This document shows positions 5,448-15,966 of a stretch of 36,609 nt of DNA, in pieces (position 1 is the first letter of the stretch; every line of letters begins with the position of its first letter). Under the pieces are notes generated by a model. That model searched no databases and was not told the origin of the DNA. It saw only the letters and a list, made by a program, of their open reading frames with translations. The stretch is from a virus. The stretch lies in the IMG/VR virus record IMGVR_UViG_3300033388_001888, positions 1 to 36,609 of that record. The stretch is one strand, 5' to 3'. A program made the translations under genes and the position numbers.

Positions 5448-7832
5448 TTATGTCAGTATATTACCTCTTACATCACCAAAACTGTTACCTAATCCATCAG
5501 TTAAAGTGAGTCCGTTTTTATCTATAGCAGCACCAGCAACGCCGGGGTCTTTACCGCCACTACCTTCGGGCGCAAACTCTCCATCCTGCCCCAAGTCACC
5601 ACCATCACCGCCCTTGGTTCGTAGATTTTCCAATCCGACTTGTATTAACGCACTGCCACCAGTACCGCCATGCTCTAATGTTCCGTTGGTCGGGTTTGTT
5701 ACGGAGCCATTATCACCCCTGCTGTTAGTTGTATTGCCACCCCTAAAACCAGCACCACCACCAGCACCAGCAAAGGAAACGTCGGTACTTTCTGATGCTG
5801 ACTCGAACGAGTTACCACCAGCGCCACCACCACCACCGATTAAGCCATTATTAACTAATGTTACCGGGTGCCTCATAAAGATTGCCCCGCCACCATTGCC
5901 GGGTGTACTTAAAAATCCGCCACCGTCATCACTACCGCCATAACCAACAATTACACCACCATCATTGACCTGTATTGTCACTATTGCGCCAGCCGTCCAC
6001 AGCCCCGTATCTATGGTGTATGATGTCGCAACTTGCGAGCCAACTCTGACGCCATCTTCAATAATAAAAACAGCTTGCGTCAACGCTCCTTCTTGCTCTG
6101 GAAATTCTAACTCGTATATATCTCTTAGATTTATATTAAAGGACTCCGCTAGTTCGCTAGATGGCACAAATATAATATCGACTAAAGGGTCTCCCGCTCC
6201 TTGGTCTTGGTCTAACTCTTGGCCATAGGTAAACTCTAAAGCATTGTAAACGTAGTTTCTGCCCTCCTTAGAGCTTAATATCTGGTATACAGTATCAACG
6301 GGCAAGCCTGTAAAGTCCGTAATATCACGATGATTAACAACAGCCGTTTGACCGACCCAAAAATTAGAATCTTTAGCCTCTAATGAAAAGCTAATTTCTC
6401 TCGGAATGTCGGCAAACCGACGGCCAATTAAGGCTGCCAACTGTAAAGCTTGCGCCTTGCCATTGTTGGTTATCCATCGTGAATTAATTGTTTTGATTTC
6501 ACCAGCGCCATACTTAGCGATAGATTCTGTGTCGGTTCTTATTAGTGTTTGCTGATAATTACTAAAATCATCTAGGTTTTTTGTCGGGTCGAACTGTCCA
6601 AAATTCAAGAATATTGTTGAGCGTCTTAATTCTGGCTTGTCGGATGTTCTGAATGAATCGGCCACTATTCCGCTATCCATATTTATAGTGTTTCCGCTAG
6701 AATGTGGCGCCTTCAATGCGGTCATTTGTATTTTCTGTTTCTGCTCATCCCACCACAAATAATGTGGCATTGACTCGGCCAATTCCTTTAACAATTTGAA
6801 CACGTCAAAAGGCTTAACGATAATCCCGCTAAGGCCACCACTCAAGAAGTTATCAACCTCTACTTCCCATGAATCGAGCGGCATAAATGACGCGTCGACC
6901 GTGGTGTAGTTTGTTATTAAATCGTTAACGATAAAATCAACCTGTTTACCGATATATTCAAGGCATAACTGTACGGTGTCGTCCTCGTTATGTGCTGTGG
7001 CTGCGGTGTTGTTCTGCCCTCTACCACCCGTCAGCGTTAAGGTGTCGCCGCTCCTACTACTAAAAGCAATTACCTCTGAGTTAATCAAAACCTTTCCGCT
7101 TAGTGGGTATTCTGAACCAATCCCGGCAGGCTTTAATGTTAAAAATGCAGTTCCAGCACCCAGTCCGACGTCTAACTGACCGTTACTTGCTTTGGGTGCT
7201 TGTGCTTTTTTACTACTTACTAATTTAAGCGGGTCTTTAGCTGTGATTGAACATGTACCATTAGTCACGGTCATTTTATCAACGATATAATACCGGGTGG
7301 TAAAATTAGCCTCATCAAATACGCCATCAACTAAATAGCCAGATAAAACCCTTAGTTCTTTGTTTTGGTAATCAGGGTTCCTAGCTCTCAATTTAGTCCA
7401 AAAACTACCGCGTTCAGATGCTATATAGCTACGGCCGCTTAGGTATTTATCGACGCCTATATCGGAATGCGGGTGGTCGGTAAACGTACATGACACGCTA
7501 GCCCTAACACCTAATCCGCCAGCCAAATCTATTTTAGATGGTGATATGTTGACGGTTTTTAGGCTCGGGATTGGGTCAACAGTAGTCGAGCCAGCAAGGC
7601 CAATCGGCGCGGGTGAGCGTGACTGGTAAAATCTAAAGTGATTCAGTGAGCTGTCGACGGTATACGCTGATAAAAAGTTACATGTTTCTAGTGTGTTGAA
7701 GCATATATCGTCGCCCGTTTCGGTGGCGTTACATGGCGGTATACCTGAAAACTGAGTACAACCCGTTAAGAATAAATCAACTATATAAATATGTTCTTTG
7801 CCGAAAACTAGCTTTTCATTATTAAAACTCAT
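5448..7832 (-). CDS. Tail hub / receptor-binding tip protein (794 aa)
   Basis: Last late gene, starting inside the stop of the upstream tail gene (ATGA). The N-terminus has a conserved-looking Cys cluster: C25-x8-C34-x9-C44-x6-C51. The middle (about 130-560) looks like a baseplate hub, with a YLWWDEQKQKIQMTAL segment and a repeating strand pattern. From residue 627 on it is glycine-rich (runs such as GGGGGAGG, GAGGGAG, GGTGG, GGDGGD) and ends with LTDGLGNSFGDVRGNILT. Such polyglycine blocks form the host-binding tip in gp38-type adhesins. The role would be hub plus receptor recognition; the Cys cluster may bind an Fe-S centre, as in lambda L or GTA hub proteins, or form disulfides. Confidence 0.8.
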   Translation of the reverse strand: MSFNNEKLVFGKEHIYIVDLFLTGCTQFSGIPPCNATETGDDICFNTLETCNFLSAYTVDSSLNHFRFYQSRSPAPIGLAGSTTVDPIPSLKTVNISPSKIDLAGGLGVRASVSCTFTDHPHSDIGVDKYLSGRSYIASERGSFWTKLRARNPDYQNKELRVLSGYLVDGVFDEANFTTRYYIVDKMTVTNGTCSITAKDPLKLVSSKKAQAPKASNGQLDVGLGAGTAFLTLKPAGIGSEYPLSGKVLINSEVIAFSSRSGDTLTLTGGRGQNNTAATAHNEDDTVQLCLEYIGKQVDFIVNDLITNYTTVDASFMPLDSWEVEVDNFLSGGLSGIIVKPFDVFKLLKELAESMPHYLWWDEQKQKIQMTALKAPHSSGNTINMDSGIVADSFRTSDKPELRRSTIFLNFGQFDPTKNLDDFSNYQQTLIRTDTESIAKYGAGEIKTINSRWITNNGKAQALQLAALIGRRFADIPREISFSLEAKDSNFWVGQTAVVNHRDITDFTGLPVDTVYQILSSKEGRNYVYNALEFTYGQELDQDQGAGDPLVDIIFVPSSELAESFNINLRDIYELEFPEQEGALTQAVFIIEDGVRVGSQVATSYTIDTGLWTAGAIVTIQVNDGGVIVGYGGSDDGGGFLSTPGNGGGAIFMRHPVTLVNNGLIGGGGGAGGNSFESASESTDVSFAGAGGGAGFRGGNTTNSRGDNGSVTNPTNGTLEHGGTGGSALIQVGLENLRTKGGDGGDLGQDGEFAPEGSGGKDPGVAGAAIDKNGLTLTDGLGNSFGDVRGNILT

Positions 7833-8722
7833 GAGTCGGAATGCCCTTTAAAGTTAAATGATACTTCCATTAGGTCACTGCCGCCGCCCATATTGGTAGG
7901 TTTAATATCTCCCGTGGTATAGCCAAAGCTTGTATCTGATGGGTACTCGGCCGGATTCCACTTGATAAAAAATGGCGTGGTTACTGCCGAATCAACAAAC
8001 CTTTGAAAAACAGTGCGATACCAACCCGGCGTTAAGTGTCGCCAACTAAACTCTGTTGCTGTACCTCTACGGGTTACTGTGCGGCCTAAGAACTGGCCAC
8101 TATCAGACATTGTTGATTGATAGCTTGTTTTTTGTGATAGGCTGGCTGGACTATGGCCGCCATAAATTGAGCGTTCCATCTCCATAGCTTTTCCAGCATA
8201 CAGCACGCCCAATGTTGCACCAAAGTTGGGCGAATCAAAAGTAAATACTAGCTCGGCCACTACCACATCAAAACCAGAATAATCAAACATTATCGCGTTA
8301 TCAGTGTTAAAACTGAACGAATCAAAAAAGGTTAACGCCCCACCGACAGTGGTTGAGTATTCTATCGTTACAAATACCTGTCCGGCATCGTGCGACCCTA
8401 GTGTGTGAGCGCCGAATGCTATGAAATCAAATGTCGTTAGCGATTGAAATTGAAACCTAACAGGAGAACCAATGCCGCCCACCTCCCATCTTTCATAGGT
8501 GTTCGGGATTAAAGCTTTATCAGCAAAGATAAAATCAGATGAAACAAGTAAATTTTCATAGCCTATGCGGGCGTTGTTAGTGCTGCTTTCTGGCGGTGTA
8601 ATAGGTGTTAGCGTGTTTGGCACACCGATAACGCCGACCGTTTCAGGTGGTAGCGTGTTAGGTGTATCAATAGCGCCGACAGCCTCGGGCGCTAAAATAT
8701 TTGGTGGGTCTATCTTAGCCAT
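7829..8722 (-). CDS. Tail tip protein with N-terminal 14-residue repeats (297 aa)
   Basis: Residues 1-42 are three copies of the 14-residue PN-x-L repeat that fills the 283-aa protein encoded two genes upstream (10106-10957). The rest is one or two beta-rich domains. A conserved-looking C-terminal block runs from MERSIYGGHSPASL through GQFLGRTVTRRGTATEFSW, FFIKWNPAEYP and PTNMGGGSDLMEVSF. Its place between the fibre and hub genes and this composition suggest a distal-tail or tail-tip connector. The repeats may let it assemble with the repeat fibre. Confidence 0.75.
   Translation of the reverse strand: MAKIDPPNILAPEAVGAIDTPNTLPPETVGVIGVPNTLTPITPPESSTNNARIGYENLLVSSDFIFADKALIPNTYERWEVGGIGSPVRFQFQSLTTFDFIAFGAHTLGSHDAGQVFVTIEYSTTVGGALTFFDSFSFNTDNAIMFDYSGFDVVVAELVFTFDSPNFGATLGVLYAGKAMEMERSIYGGHSPASLSQKTSYQSTMSDSGQFLGRTVTRRGTATEFSWRHLTPGWYRTVFQRFVDSAVTTPFFIKWNPAEYPSDTSFGYTTGDIKPTNMGGGSDLMEVSFNFKGHSDS
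8597..8722 (-). repeat. Three copies of the 14-residue tail repeat
   Basis: Codons 1-42 of the 297-aa tail protein. Copies two and three read VGAIDTPNTLPPET and VGVIGVPNTLTPIT; the first (MAKIDPPNILAPEA) includes the start Met. All keep PN at positions 7-8 and L at 10, as in the 18-copy array at 10181-10936. Confidence 0.9.
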
Positions 8723-8760
8723 TAATCAAGCCTTTTTGTGTTGTAACCAAGCGCCTATTA

Positions 8761-10101
8761 TTAAATATTAGCCGCATCTAATCTAGCTATTAACGCGTTG
8801 ATTTGTATTTGCTGGTCATAGCAAAGCTGAACCAAATGCGGGACGGCTTTTGATTGGTCAACACCGCAAGGAGTAACTACTTTTTCAGGTTCGATAATCT
8901 CGGTTTTGAATTCACCAGTGCCAACGGGGTTTACTTTGCCTGTGGGTACTGATTTAAACTCACCAGTACCGATAGTTAAAGCCTCCGGCTCTCCGTCAGC
9001 ATTTAAAACTGTAACTTGCTTGGTCATTTCAACATCAGCCATCACGGCGACGCCTCTCATAATTTCCACTTGTTCGGTAACGGCTGGCTCATATATCGAA
9101 CCTATCTCAACGTTTAAATCTGTTGAACCCTTACCCTCTGTAACCATCCCGCCAGCACCACAAGAGATTAACCGTTGAGCAACAAAGCCCGGTACTTTTA
9201 CTGATGGGTCACTTTTAAAGTTAAAGTACTGTACCGCGTCACTCTCAACAATAGCCTTGACTAACTCAAAAGCGTCAGATATTGGCGCGAAATTATCTTT
9301 TAATCTTTCGTCGGATGATACGTTATAGCTGGTCGCTGCTCCGCTTGTTGATATGGTGCCAACGGTGCCGTTGTCGTTTCTAAAATCCATAGCAACCTTA
9401 ACGTCATTAGCATTCTGGCCTATTACGATTGTCGAGTCTGCCGTGCCACTTCGACCGATGGTAATGGCCTTTACACCGTTAGCAGCTGGAAATCCAAGCA
9501 TATTAATAATATCAACTTCCATTTTCGTCACATCAAAGACAGCCGTGCCATCGAGTTCGAATTTTACGTTGCTGGACGTGTCAAAGCTCGCAACGTTACC
9601 GAAAAACGACCCGGTAGTGTCAAAGCCCATTTGGGCAAATGCGGACGAGCTACTAAAAAGGTCGCTTAGTGTGAGCTTACCTTCCGTGGTTGACGCGCTA
9701 ACTATAGATACACCTGTAGCGGCACCCGTCATGCGTTGACCACCTAAATCTAGTGCGTTAATCTCTATGGTGTTACCGTCTATTATGGTGTCATTGTCAT
9801 TTTTAAATGAGATACCGTTATTGTTGCTTGGGTTTTCAAACCTAGCCCCGGCACTATCCCACGACGTTACTGCCTTTTGTACTGCTCCATTGTTATCCGT
9901 CATTATAACGTAACCATCAACGGCACTAGCTGTAACGATATTAAGTATTGCGCCACCAGCGGCAGAGTTTAGCTCTACATCCTCTATCTCTAGGCTGCCA
10001 TTTGACTTTATGCCAGTGTTATCTGTGCCTATAGAGATGGCTGCCTTGTCTAATGCTGCGTCAATTTCTACGCCTGATTTATCGCTCAAGTAGTTTGCCA
10101 T
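8761..10101 (-). CDS. Tail fibre with C-terminal S74 self-cleaving chaperone (446 aa)
   Basis: The N-terminus MANYLSDKSGVEIDAALDKA is typical of side or tip fibre attachment domains. A beta-rich repetitive shaft covers about 30-255. The intramolecular chaperone (peptidase S74) begins near 260 with YNVSSDERLKDN, then QYFNF and VKVPGFVAQRL. The Ser263/Lys268 pair is the expected self-cleavage dyad; the chaperone helps the shaft trimerise and is then released. The C-terminal part (about 184 aa) is longer than usual and contains two similar GTGEFK segments. Good GGAG ribosome site. Probable receptor-binding fibre of the tail tip. Confidence 0.88.
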   Translation of the reverse strand: MANYLSDKSGVEIDAALDKAAISIGTDNTGIKSNGSLEIEDVELNSAAGGAILNIVTASAVDGYVIMTDNNGAVQKAVTSWDSAGARFENPSNNNGISFKNDNDTIIDGNTIEINALDLGGQRMTGAATGVSIVSASTTEGKLTLSDLFSSSSAFAQMGFDTTGSFFGNVASFDTSSNVKFELDGTAVFDVTKMEVDIINMLGFPAANGVKAITIGRSGTADSTIVIGQNANDVKVAMDFRNDNGTVGTISTSGAATSYNVSSDERLKDNFAPISDAFELVKAIVESDAVQYFNFKSDPSVKVPGFVAQRLISCGAGGMVTEGKGSTDLNVEIGSIYEPAVTEQVEIMRGVAVMADVEMTKQVTVLNADGEPEALTIGTGEFKSVPTGKVNPVGTGEFKTEIIEPEKVVTPCGVDQSKAVPHLVQLCYDQQIQINALIARLDAANI

Positions 10102-10105
10102 TTTT

Positions 10106-10957
10106 CTAAATCTCCACTAAAAAGAATTCGCCGTCAGAGGTTTGAAAAAACTCACTGCCAGAGGTTAAAAAGTATTGTTTGCCCGATGGTAAAATATTAT
10201 TTGGCGGCTGTACTTCGCCAACACTATCGGGCGTTAATGTATTTGGTACGTCGATATTACCAATATTATCAGGTGTTAAAGTATTTGGCGCATTAATACC
10301 ACCGACATTTTCAGCGGTTAAAGTATTTGGTGTATTAATATCGCCGACAGCCTGAGAGCTTAATGCGTTGGGTGTATCAATATTACCTGCCGATTCTGCG
10401 CTTAATGCGTTAGGTGTGCTTATTTCGCCCAATGCTGACGCTGGCAATGTGTTTGGTGTGTTGATAGCTCCGGGCAGTTCAGGTGGCAGGTCGTTAGGTG
10501 GTAAAATATCACCTACGTTTTCGGCTCCTAATGAATTTGGTAAGCCTATTGCCCCGACACTTTGGGCGCCCAGTGAATTTGGCAAGCCAATGGCGCCCAC
10601 TGACTCAGGGTTTAGGTTGTTTGGTAGTTCAATATTGCCGACACTTTCGGCGCCAAGTGAATTCGGCGCATTAATCTCCCCGACACTTTGGGCTGGTAAC
10701 GCGTTGGGTAATCCTATGGCGCCAACCACCTCCGCTCCTAGCGTGTTTGGTGCCGTGATAATTCCGACACTTTCGGCGCCCAGTGCGTTAGGCGTTGCTA
10801 TTGCTCCGACGGTTTCGGCGCCTAAATTATTGGGCGCCACAACACTACCAACAGCCTTTGCTGGTAGGTTGTTTGGTGTTGATATATTACCCTCAGCGCT
10901 ACTGTTTAGCGTGTTGGGCGGGTCTATTGTTCCGGGGTCTTGCGGTGTAATTGACAT
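10106..10957 (-). CDS. Tail protein made of eighteen 14-residue repeats (283 aa)
   Basis: After seven residues (MSITPQD) the protein is 18 gapless copies of a 14-residue unit, for example VGAIGLPNSLGAQS. Position 2 is Gly, 7-8 are Pro-Asn and 10 is Leu (Ile once). It ends with a 24-residue tail containing a second short repeat (FLTSGS, FFQTSD, FFLVEI). The gene lies between tape measure and S74 fibre, with GGAG upstream, so it is a tail component. Gly/Pro-Asn turns at fixed spacing suggest an elongated beta-solenoid or similar rod. I do not recognise a named family. Confidence 0.85.
   Translation of the reverse strand: MSITPQDPGTIDPPNTLNSSAEGNISTPNNLPAKAVGSVVAPNNLGAETVGAIATPNALGAESVGIITAPNTLGAEVVGAIGLPNALPAQSVGEINAPNSLGAESVGNIELPNNLNPESVGAIGLPNSLGAQSVGAIGLPNSLGAENVGDILPPNDLPPELPGAINTPNTLPASALGEISTPNALSAESAGNIDTPNALSSQAVGDINTPNTLTAENVGGINAPNTLTPDNIGNIDVPNTLTPDSVGEVQPPNNILPSGKQYFLTSGSEFFQTSDGEFFLVEI
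10181..10936 (-). repeat. 42-bp coding repeat array (18 units)
   Basis: Eighteen tandem 42-base units, one per 14-residue repeat (residues 8-259), with no gaps. Units have diverged at third positions, though neighbours such as units 9 and 10 (VGAIGLPNSLGAQS and VGAIGLPNSLGAEN) are nearly identical. That points to past unit duplication. The regular composition also creates a long spurious antisense frame. Confidence 0.95.
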
Positions 10958-10958
10958 T

Positions 10959-12914
10959 TTAAGTTGCTCCGCCTACGTTTAATTCCATACCATCGCCCAA
11001 TGCGTCATTTATCTGACTGAATAAGCCACGCACTTGGTCGGTGGACATTAGGCCGTCGCCAGCTATATTTACATCGATAGTTCTATTTGGTGTTGCTGCG
11101 GGTGCTGAGCCTCCGCCACCAGCAGAGCGACCAGCGCCAGCGCCAGCACTTCCGCCACTACCGCCACTTGTTCCGCCCATGCTTTTTCCGCCTGATTTTA
11201 TGCTATTAATCATCCCGGCTGTTTGAGCTATAGACGCCGCCGCGTATGACGCCGCCGCAACAGGTGCCCAAGGTCCGCCAATTGACATACCAGCAGAGAA
11301 AGCAGCTACAGCAGCCTCTTTACCTTTGATTACAGCACTAACAATAGCTAAGCCTTGTTGGATTTTTTGAGCCTTTTTACCACCCAAAGATAAGGCTTTT
11401 GCCGTGGCATCTAGTATTGAAGTGGTTACGTTTAATTTTGCTTTTTCTGTTTTCTGAGAAAGGGCGACACTAGCGGAGGCGAATTGCTCTTCGGTGATTT
11501 GCTTCGTTTTTAGTGCGTTATCAAGTATTTGCTGCTCCCTCTCAAAGCGCCCCATCATGGTTTCCTCTTTGAGTACGCCTTGCTCTAGTAGTGCCGCTAA
11601 AATTTGTTCATTTTCGTCACGTATTCTTTTCGCTTCTGAACTTTCTGCGGGTGATTCTGCGCCATCGGCACTATCTGCCTTATCTGTTTCAGCTTTGGTG
11701 ACCGTTGCTGTTGCTATTCTATCAGCCTCAGCAATGGCAGCATCGGCAAAGTTTCTTATCTGGTCACTAGGCAATTCCTGCATTGCCAGCTCATGTAATT
11801 CGGCGTTAGTTTCTTTGACCAAGCCAATCATGTTATCAGCGACAGCGTTTACACCCGTGACAAATTTTGAGCTATTAACCTCTGGTAGCTCTTTTATGCC
11901 AGTGCCGAATACGCTATTAATAACCTTTACCGCGTCATTTATATCTTTTATTAAAAAATCAACAGAGCTAGATATTATTTTGGTGATACCTTGAAACACC
12001 TTGACGATTAATGCGGCAAACCCAATCGCCCCAACCTCTAAGGTTTTAAATACTAGCTGTATGCCATGTAATCCATCAGCAAAAGTACCAATGACAGCTA
12101 AAACACCATCGAATACCTTATCGATAGTGCCGCCAAATCCTTGAGTCTCGATAGCGGCATCAATAAATTGACTCGCTATGGCCTCAATAATTGGTGATAG
12201 TTTGACAGTTAGTTTATTGGCTAACCCGGTGACAACCTCTGACGCCTTAAACAGTGCGTCATTGGCGTTTTCAACTTTGGTGGTCTCAATCCTTGATAGT
12301 GAGATTCCCATTTCGTCAATTGACTTGACAGTGGGCGCTAACCCCTCATCCTTTAATTGGTCAAGCATCTTGAGCATACGAACACCAGAGCGGCCAAATA
12401 GGTCGTTAGATATTGAAGCTTTTGTTGCTTGGTTGTTTACGCCAGATAAGGCTATCGCTAGTTGTTCGATTTGCTTATCGGGTGCTAGGTTTACAATTTC
12501 ATTAACGTTCACGCCTAAATCAGCGAGAGCGTCAGCACTTGCGCCGCCATTCCTAGCCGCATTACCTAGATTTTTTTGCATCCTCTCAAGCGATTTGTTT
12601 ACCATTTCGTTAGAGGTACCTGTTAATTCACCTATGTGCTGTAACGCTTGTAATTTTTCTTGCTGAATACCTAAAGCGTCGGATGTTTTAGCTAATGAAT
12701 CGAGTGATTTTAGCTGGTTTTTAACTACGGCAGTGGTAACAGCAGTTACGGCGGTGACGGCAGCAGCGGCCCATTTACCCCACTGATTTGTGCTTGCTCT
12801 TAGTTGCTTGCCGCCCTCAGTTAGAGCCTTGCCAGATGCCGCAATTCCTTTTTTAACGCCTTTAGCGTCAACCGTTATTTCTACGCTTAACGCGCCAATT
12901 ACAGAACTAGCCAT
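10959..12914 (-). CDS. Tape measure protein (651 aa)
   Basis: A long helical protein directly downstream of the tail chaperone frames. It starts MASSVIGALSVEITVDAKGVKKG and has the A/T-rich hydrophobic segment KWAAAAVTAVTAVTTAVV, typical of tape measures, plus central hydrophobic stretches and long coiled coils. The C-terminus is Gly/Ser rich (GGTSGGSGGSAGAGAG) before a short folded end. Tape measures set tail length at roughly 1.5 angstrom per residue, so about 100 nm here, and can form a membrane conduit. ATG follows the frameshift ORF stop by one base. Confidence 0.92.
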   Translation of the reverse strand: MASSVIGALSVEITVDAKGVKKGIAASGKALTEGGKQLRASTNQWGKWAAAAVTAVTAVTTAVVKNQLKSLDSLAKTSDALGIQQEKLQALQHIGELTGTSNEMVNKSLERMQKNLGNAARNGGASADALADLGVNVNEIVNLAPDKQIEQLAIALSGVNNQATKASISNDLFGRSGVRMLKMLDQLKDEGLAPTVKSIDEMGISLSRIETTKVENANDALFKASEVVTGLANKLTVKLSPIIEAIASQFIDAAIETQGFGGTIDKVFDGVLAVIGTFADGLHGIQLVFKTLEVGAIGFAALIVKVFQGITKIISSSVDFLIKDINDAVKVINSVFGTGIKELPEVNSSKFVTGVNAVADNMIGLVKETNAELHELAMQELPSDQIRNFADAAIAEADRIATATVTKAETDKADSADGAESPAESSEAKRIRDENEQILAALLEQGVLKEETMMGRFEREQQILDNALKTKQITEEQFASASVALSQKTEKAKLNVTTSILDATAKALSLGGKKAQKIQQGLAIVSAVIKGKEAAVAAFSAGMSIGGPWAPVAAASYAAASIAQTAGMINSIKSGGKSMGGTSGGSGGSAGAGAGRSAGGGGSAPAATPNRTIDVNIAGDGLMSTDQVRGLFSQINDALGDGMELNVGGAT

Positions 12915-15902: not shown

Positions 15903-15931
15903 AATGTAAATAAAGGTTGCGATGGTGTCAA
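15903..15931 (-). promoter_or_regulatory. Leftward promoter for connector/tail genes
   Basis: On the minus strand a consensus -35 TTGACA (15926-15931), 17 bases, then TACATT (15903-15908) as -10. The start would fall about 38 bases before the GGAGG-led gene at 15858. The -35 box is itself one of the TGTCAATT repeats, so the binding protein of those repeats should control it. Confidence 0.6.
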
Positions 15932-15944
15932 TTGATGTTAGAAT
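15917..15944 (+). promoter_or_regulatory. Rightward promoter of the moron
   Basis: TTGCGA (15917-15922), 16-base spacer, TAGAAT (15939-15944), five of six matches for the -10. The start would be near 15951, 26 bases before the HTH gene. The element overlaps the divergent leftward promoter and the operator repeats. Confidence 0.6.
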
Positions 15945-15966
15945 GATGTCAATTGATGTCAATTAC
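15926..15966. promoter_or_regulatory. Phased operator repeats (three TGTCAATT sites)
   Basis: TGTCAATTGATGT occurs exactly at 15926-15938 and 15947-15959, and a third TGTCAATT starts at 15957. Spacings are 21 and 10 bases, two and one helical turns, so the three sites face the same side of DNA. They cover the spacer and start of the rightward promoter and the -35 of the leftward one. Probably bound by the small HTH protein encoded just downstream. Confidence 0.7.

Follow-up and report, generated by a model that had tools for sequence, protein, structure and literature searches.

The window—the whole stretch of 36,609 nucleotides analysed here, from IMG/VR virus record IMGVR_UViG_3300033388_001888—carries on its minus strand a tail-tip block in which two non-adjacent genes encode the same 14-residue repeat. 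Read along that strand, the tape measure gene is followed by genes for a 283-residue array protein (hereafter the rod), an S74-type fibre, a 297-residue protein resembling a distal tail protein (Dit) and a 794-residue hub (Table 1), with 40 bases at most between neighbours and a 4-base overlap of the last two genes. An earlier note, made from the sequence alone, had counted 18 copies of the unit in the first protein and three in the second, with the fibre gene in between; our analysis confirmed both counts and the intervening gene, and the arrays lie where that note had placed them, with the exact limits listed in Table 1.

Table 1. Features of the tail-tip block in the window, ordered along the minus strand (aa, amino acids; pLDDT, predicted local distance difference test).
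Feature	Position	Strand	Basis or remark
Tape measure protein, 651 aa	10959..12914	-	phrog_9483 (tail length tape measure), E 5.7e-119
Array protein (rod), 283 aa	10106..10957	-	open reading frame; start one base past the tape measure stop
18 units of 14 residues in the rod, consensus G-x-[IV]-x-x-P-N-x-L-x-x-E-x-V	10178..10933	-	
C-terminal tail of the rod, 23 residues, YFLTSGSEFFQTSDGEFF type	10109..10177	-	strands predicted with low confidence
Fibre gene with S74-type chaperone end, 446 aa, without array	8761..10101	-	phrog_19195, phrog_22896, phrog_5668
Dit-like protein, 297 aa	7829..8722	-	phrog_11633, E 7.8e-60; gene position; AlphaFold pLDDT 86
Three array units at the Dit N-terminus, residues 2-43	8594..8719	-	predicted without regular structure; pLDDT 50-61 (residues 1-50)
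CBM32/discoidin-like galactose-binding fold, Dit residues 53-179	8186..8566	-	structure and profile matches
C-terminal half of Dit, residues 180-297, presumed tail-tube fold	7832..8185	-	position; analogy with LSH1 gp24 as described in the parts consulted of PMC13243795
Hub/adhesin protein, 794 aa	5448..7832	-	phrog_11439, E 2.7e-205
Gp38-type adhesin, C-terminus of the 794-aa hub	about 5502-6029		Pfam PF05268, 30.9 bits (above cutoff 25)

In the rod, the dipeptide PN recurs at residues 14, 28, ... 252, i.e., in 18 units at a step of exactly 14 with zero slips; self-comparison of the protein gave a mean BLOSUM score of 2.66 at lag 14, and the other lags tried, except 28, gave about -0.2 to -1.7. 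PN stands at residues 7, 21 and 35 of the Dit-like protein, where three units keep the register of the rod. A position matrix derived from the rod units scored +66 on this triple—2,000 shuffles of the Dit-like protein reached -23 at most—and about -40 on the S74, hub and tape measure proteins. At the DNA level, positions 8603-8685 match the rod gene with 76% identity over 83 bases (E-value 1.6e-11). Relatives carry comparable arrays in genes between the tape measure and Dit genes, termed upstream arrays below. Their consensus, drawn from 223 units, reads G-[SA]-[IV]-A-x-P-N-T-L-T-[AP]-E-[AST]-[AV] with the proline conserved in 97%, and in the 20 such arrays that were examined, 147 of 149 steps from one unit to the next equal 14. 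In two relatives, L077 and GJ44, the period is also 14 residues, but few units match this consensus. Dit cores themselves held no in-register pair of units (0 of 156).

The rod homologue in relative L024 has equal length and 74% identity. Comparing the two genomes yielded nonsynonymous and synonymous divergences (dN/dS) of 0.19/0.84 for the rod and a dN of 0 for the Dit arm; judged by these rates, the array is under purifying selection, and roughly every second DNA position varies between rod units. The rod matched no Pfam or PHROG family at E-values up to 1, a result compatible with a known fold, and its low-confidence AlphaFold model (pLDDT 46) places short strands within every repeat, so that a solenoid or spiral is a possible form of the array. 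Searching the rod sequence against solved structures returned designed Pizza propellers (E-value 3e-4), a match that we judged to be a composition effect. An opposite-strand open reading frame of 204 residues (window positions 10368-10982, plus strand) mirrors the periodicity of the array and does not in itself indicate a gene.

The family matched by the 297-residue protein, phrog_11633, has no annotated function. Its homologues in isolated phages (18 records matched, 15 regions read) are encoded between the tape measure and the next tail protein, several of them directly after the tape measure. Since the gene lies between tape measure and hub in the window and the fold is partly recognizable, we regard the protein, by position and partial fold, as Dit. 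Residues 1-48 precede the core and hold the three units. The stretch from residue 53 to 179 is CBM32/discoidin-like, with VIA-align Z scores up to 14.1, Foldseek matches to CBM32 and a profile match to the CBM32 of AlyQ (E-value 0.0018). The VIA-align rows cover mainly this stretch and hardly the C-terminal half at all, which is not counter-evidence to a tail-tube fold there; such a fold is presumed by analogy, and a profile search of Dit against lambda gpM gave no match. One relative (L082:5808-7286) has a 492-residue Dit with about 230 residues, LamG-like by eye, inserted inside the core. As for the fibre gene, its S74 domain (PF13884) scored 18.8 bits in the window (E-value 0.002) and 20.2 bits in L024, both under the curated cutoff of 22, and the protein contains at residue 262 an SSDERLK motif, which we take to be the S74-type chaperone motif.

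To see how the two arrays are distributed, we surveyed 135 relatives with a visible interval from tape measure to Dit. Both arrays occurred in 22, the upstream array only in 21, the Dit array only in 3 and neither in 89, i.e., 22 of the 25 genomes with a Dit array also have an upstream array gene. The naive Fisher p value for this pairing was 1e-10, or 8e-9 with the 18 strictly scored rows bearing both—values that ignore kinship. The first scan contributed 106 of its 122 distinct Dit rows (9 both, 21 upstream only, 3 Dit only, 73 neither) and the second 29 of its 38 added rows (13 both, 16 neither); the remaining 16 and 9 rows were left out because no tape measure gene was found upstream. Rows were made distinct by their last 200 residues only, and near relatives were therefore counted separately. 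Four rows with both arrays (L179, L183, L186 and L190), under the lag-14 score or too short for it, were judged by eye and are the ones missing from the strict count. Dit arrays are also present in L034, L035, PB15, Pq0, L195 and L203, whose interval is incomplete and which stand outside the 135.

Of the 21 arrays found upstream only, 16 form the N-terminal part of a long protein whose other end resembles a fibre or lectin, and a Dit array accompanies 22 of 27 unfused upstream arrays and none of the 16 fused ones. Pfam searches of four fused proteins found Laminin_G_3 at the ends of L025, L026 and L033 and none in L131; the remaining 12 were classed by similarity of their last residues. Moreover, the part of L025 that follows the array matches 53 phage records, including tail fibres of unrelated phages. 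Taken at the level of these matches, the arrays are N-terminal to exchangeable receptor-binding parts. The layout of the window, a pure array protein with a separate fibre gene, recurs in L130. In many relatives, the array-lectin gene is followed by a gene of 124-141 residues with an LQTFAGKKWIY-like end (L025:6566-6988, L026:6562-6987, L028:6620-6994 and L112:4552-4974), which, by its position only, may encode a fibre assembly chaperone.

Several arrays escape the existing annotation. Pseudoalteromonas phages AL, SL25 and PHS3 (L008, L009 and L011:4711-4896) contain a 61-residue array reading frame before Dit that is absent from their annotation, and the AL and PHS3 records place a hypothetical gene on the other strand at this site. 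Four small opposite-strand genes lie between tape measure and Dit in PS_L5 (L005:3496-4541) and AL (L008:3905-4877). PS_L5, a Pseudoalteromonas phage, and Idiomarinaceae phage 1N2-2 are isolated members of the group that carry both arrays, with array peptides of 57-63 residues. In Alteromonas phage PB15 (L003:4754-6037 and L004:1-986), a plus-strand array reading frame spans the ends of the record, with a carbohydrate-binding-module (CBM)-like stretch between two arrays (by eye) and a short array-like peptide preceding it; part of this frame is covered in the record by a hypothetical protein on the minus strand.

Where both arrays occur, they resemble each other beyond the general consensus. 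Arrays diverging independently after an ancient duplication would be expected to match the partner arrays of foreign genomes no worse than their own. Pairing each Dit array with the upstream array of its own genome gave a centred mean match of 0.466 over 16 genomes, and none of 20,000 permutations was as high (permutation standard deviation 0.072). Shuffling the Dit arrays lowered the match to a mean of 0.074 (maximum 0.149), whereas shuffling them within each of the 14 phases left it at 0.396; the match thus lies in the position-specific consensus, and composition is no explanation. Each genome so uses its own dialect of the unit, common to both genes. The own array ranked first in 8 of 16 genomes, and in three its rank fell to between 9 and 11. 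A 5-clade unit test, since replaced by the 16-genome test, had given the identity pairing as the best of 120 permutations, with own ranks from 1 to 10 among all upstream arrays. Gene conversion, repeated derivation or co-adaptation would each yield such within-genome matching.

We also placed the arrays on trees of the Dit core, with states assigned by hand. A tree of 121 cores implies 10 changes of state for the Dit array and 4 for the upstream array, and a tree of 157 cores implies 9 and 3. The larger tree omits L208, one of the 22 genomes with both arrays, for its short core, and assigns no upstream state to L179 and L183. Within the window clade (22 rows), Dit arrays occur in three positions (window/L024, L029 and L034/L035), and no lectin fusion was apparent in any of these. 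In L034/L035, an apparent S74 fibre end (by eye, the contig being cut there) is followed by a 145-residue gene and then by Dit with three units.

The earlier note had further proposed that the shared module offers a route for recombination that changes rod length, and that aligning the DNA units could trace the three-copy set to specific units of the array. The first proposal holds in relatives: the Dit array of L169 (L169:5772-6059) has an 84-base period in 3.4 copies at 99% identity and is a recent expansion of two units per step; together with the 42- and 84-base periods of L130 and L025, this indicates that arrays can grow or shrink in steps of whole units. The window and L024 show no difference of this kind; their rods have 18 units each, with the best partner at the same position for 14 of the 18 window units. 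Identity between these two genomes rises from 36% in the tape measure (L024:1840-3801) to 74% in the rod and 97% in Dit, and an exchange boundary at the tape measure/rod junction seems likely from these values. The second proposal led to no clear source. The best rod triple for the Dit units, rod units 14 to 16 (R14-R16), reaches 66% DNA identity, a level equalled by rod-rod triples, and rod units 15-17 and 4-6 tie as best match in L024; no particular rod units stand out as the origin of the Dit triple.

What, then, do the shared units do? We give an even chance to the account in which, in this group of siphophages, the genes lying between those of the tape measure and Dit encode appendages, the array makes up the section of these nearest the tail tip, and the units on Dit serve as an arm engaging them. 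In most near relatives, a tail fibre ending in a lectin-like part would begin with the array; in the window, this fibre would be split, the 283-residue protein supplying the proximal and the S74 gene product probably the distal segment. The three-unit Dit arm would engage the rod array or the adjacent fibre, and a module common to both partners would hold an exchangeable fibre at the tail tip. We infer both the contact of arm and rod and the union of rod and S74 protein in one fibre. Arrays are recurrently fused to fibre ends and, elsewhere, to Dit, which argues for a place of the array between the two; given the precedent of phage JBD30, discussed below, we think an appendage with a proximal array, engaged by a Dit arm, most likely. 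Were this account true, a fibre/Dit repeat with a genome-matched dialect would be a candidate joint, and would explain the swapping of fibre ends on one tail.

A number of observations weigh against this account. In 21 genomes, an upstream array coexists with a bare Dit, which indicates that array proteins in general can do without the arm; even unfused arrays stand beside a bare Dit in L130 and in the short-array phages L008, L009, L011 and L040. Gene conversion without contact could be the source of the within-genome matching, and the tree offers too few independent events, the sign test of upstream against Dit arrays resting on 5 pairs, mostly uninformative. Furthermore, the rod model is of low confidence (pLDDT 46), and the JBD30 protein gp49 is likened to the window Dit by architecture and not by sequence, as far as its published description was consulted. 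The co-assembly suggested in the earlier note accordingly stands in part: the link between the two genes is backed by the co-occurrence in 22 of 25 genomes and by the within-genome consensus, and the paired presence that the note had sought in relatives is found in 22 genomes, but the 21 upstream-only genomes are instances of one array without the other, which it had listed as speaking against the idea. Its socket, from which the long rod would extend, is at most a conjecture, and these same genomes, 16 of them with lectin-fused arrays, show that a Dit array is not a required one.

Possible, if somewhat doubtful, is that the array is an easily duplicated spacer or flexible linker, present in both genes through neighbourhood and gene conversion, in proteins without direct contact. 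A free linker would not need the 14-residue step found in 147 of 149 neighbouring units of upstream arrays despite rod-unit differences at about half of the DNA positions, and the purifying selection on the array also speaks against it, even though the frequent state changes of Dit arrays on the tree (9-10, against 3-4 for upstream arrays), the recent unit duplication in L169 and the predicted lack of structure in the Dit arm fit such a linker, and conversion can produce a shared consensus. Rather unlikely, in our judgement, is that the unit acts as a homotypic coupling standard, in which the repeats of the fibre (or of an upstream peptide of 32-71 residues) and of the Dit arm would pack jointly, any fibre of the local dialect could be mounted and concerted evolution would keep the match. 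Gene fission appears improbable. It supposes a single gene joining a long array to Dit, like that of XX1924, in which the arrival of the S74 gene parted 18 units from 3 and left the three as a relic; the nearest relatives on the tree combine a lectin-fused array gene with a bare Dit and show no fusion, the rod possesses its own C-terminal tail and the Dit arm has a dN of 0, all of which argues against fission. Long arrays are indeed fused to Dit in XX1924, GJ44 and L077, PB15 has an inserted domain within such an array, and the best match of the Dit triple, R14-R16, lies near the 3' end of the rod, but this match is no better than those between rod triples and is not repeated in L024. A role as ruler or decoration along the tail tube with one unit per ring, in keeping with an extended 14-residue unit having about the estimated length of one tail-tube ring, is very improbable and largely refuted, since total units do not follow tape measure length (Spearman -0.21, p 0.27, n=30) and phages with tape measures of 640-670 residues have 3 to 21 units.

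Outside the tail-tip block, a short tandem repeat of TGTCAATTGA (3.8 copies) lies at window positions 15926-15964; the window gave no Rfam match and no tRNA.

Among known systems, the adenovirus triple beta-spiral and YadA-type rolls are trimeric fibre shafts whose short repeats, some 14-15 residues long, include a conserved turn. The repeat length of the rod is similar, but the rod has no Pfam match and its fold prediction is weak. Evolved Dit proteins of lactococcal and other phages reportedly bear additions of carbohydrate-binding type. The predicted CBM32-like fold gives the 297-residue protein this trait, and PB15 has its extra CBM-like stretch, seen by eye, inside the array; in contrast to evolved Dit, the addition in the window is a repeat array common to another gene, and the CBM32-like domain is part of the family's common core. 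The GJ44 homologue is described as a discoidin-domain protein that may act in recognition, the discoidin domain being all that the consulted text mentions of it (PMC8451122). The paper on Alteromonas phage R7M, which lists PB15, does not contain the word 'repeat', and the literature covered on 14-residue phage-tail repeats and on Dit repeats or N-terminal extensions, mostly outside subscription journals, does not describe the shared array.

Further parallels come from two phages. Alishewanella phage LSH1 has a Dit (gp24) with a galactose-binding-like N-terminal domain and a hub (gp25) with a Gp38-type adhesin end, and its authors place side-fibre attachment among the things not accomplished (PMC13243795). 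The window Dit and hub show the galactose-binding-like and Gp38-type domains too; this likeness is one of description and not of sequence, and the consulted main text on LSH1, with 'repeat' occurring once, mentions no array (PMC13243795). The attachment of side fibres to siphophage tail tips is often unresolved, which makes a repeat shared by a fibre-region protein and Dit of interest. In JBD30, gp49 is a trimeric Dit whose cores are duplicated, and the published account, as far as it was consulted, mentions no array of 14-residue units (PMC11445458). The same account numbers the fibre proteins gp47 and gp48 between the tape measure gp46 and Dit gp49, has the fibre attachment sites built by Dit and upper baseplate proteins, and lets residues 2-74 of gp49 (N-terminal domain I) wrap the fibres (PMC11445458). 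JBD30, so described, and the window thus share an N-terminal extension before the Dit core and fibre genes between tape measure and Dit.

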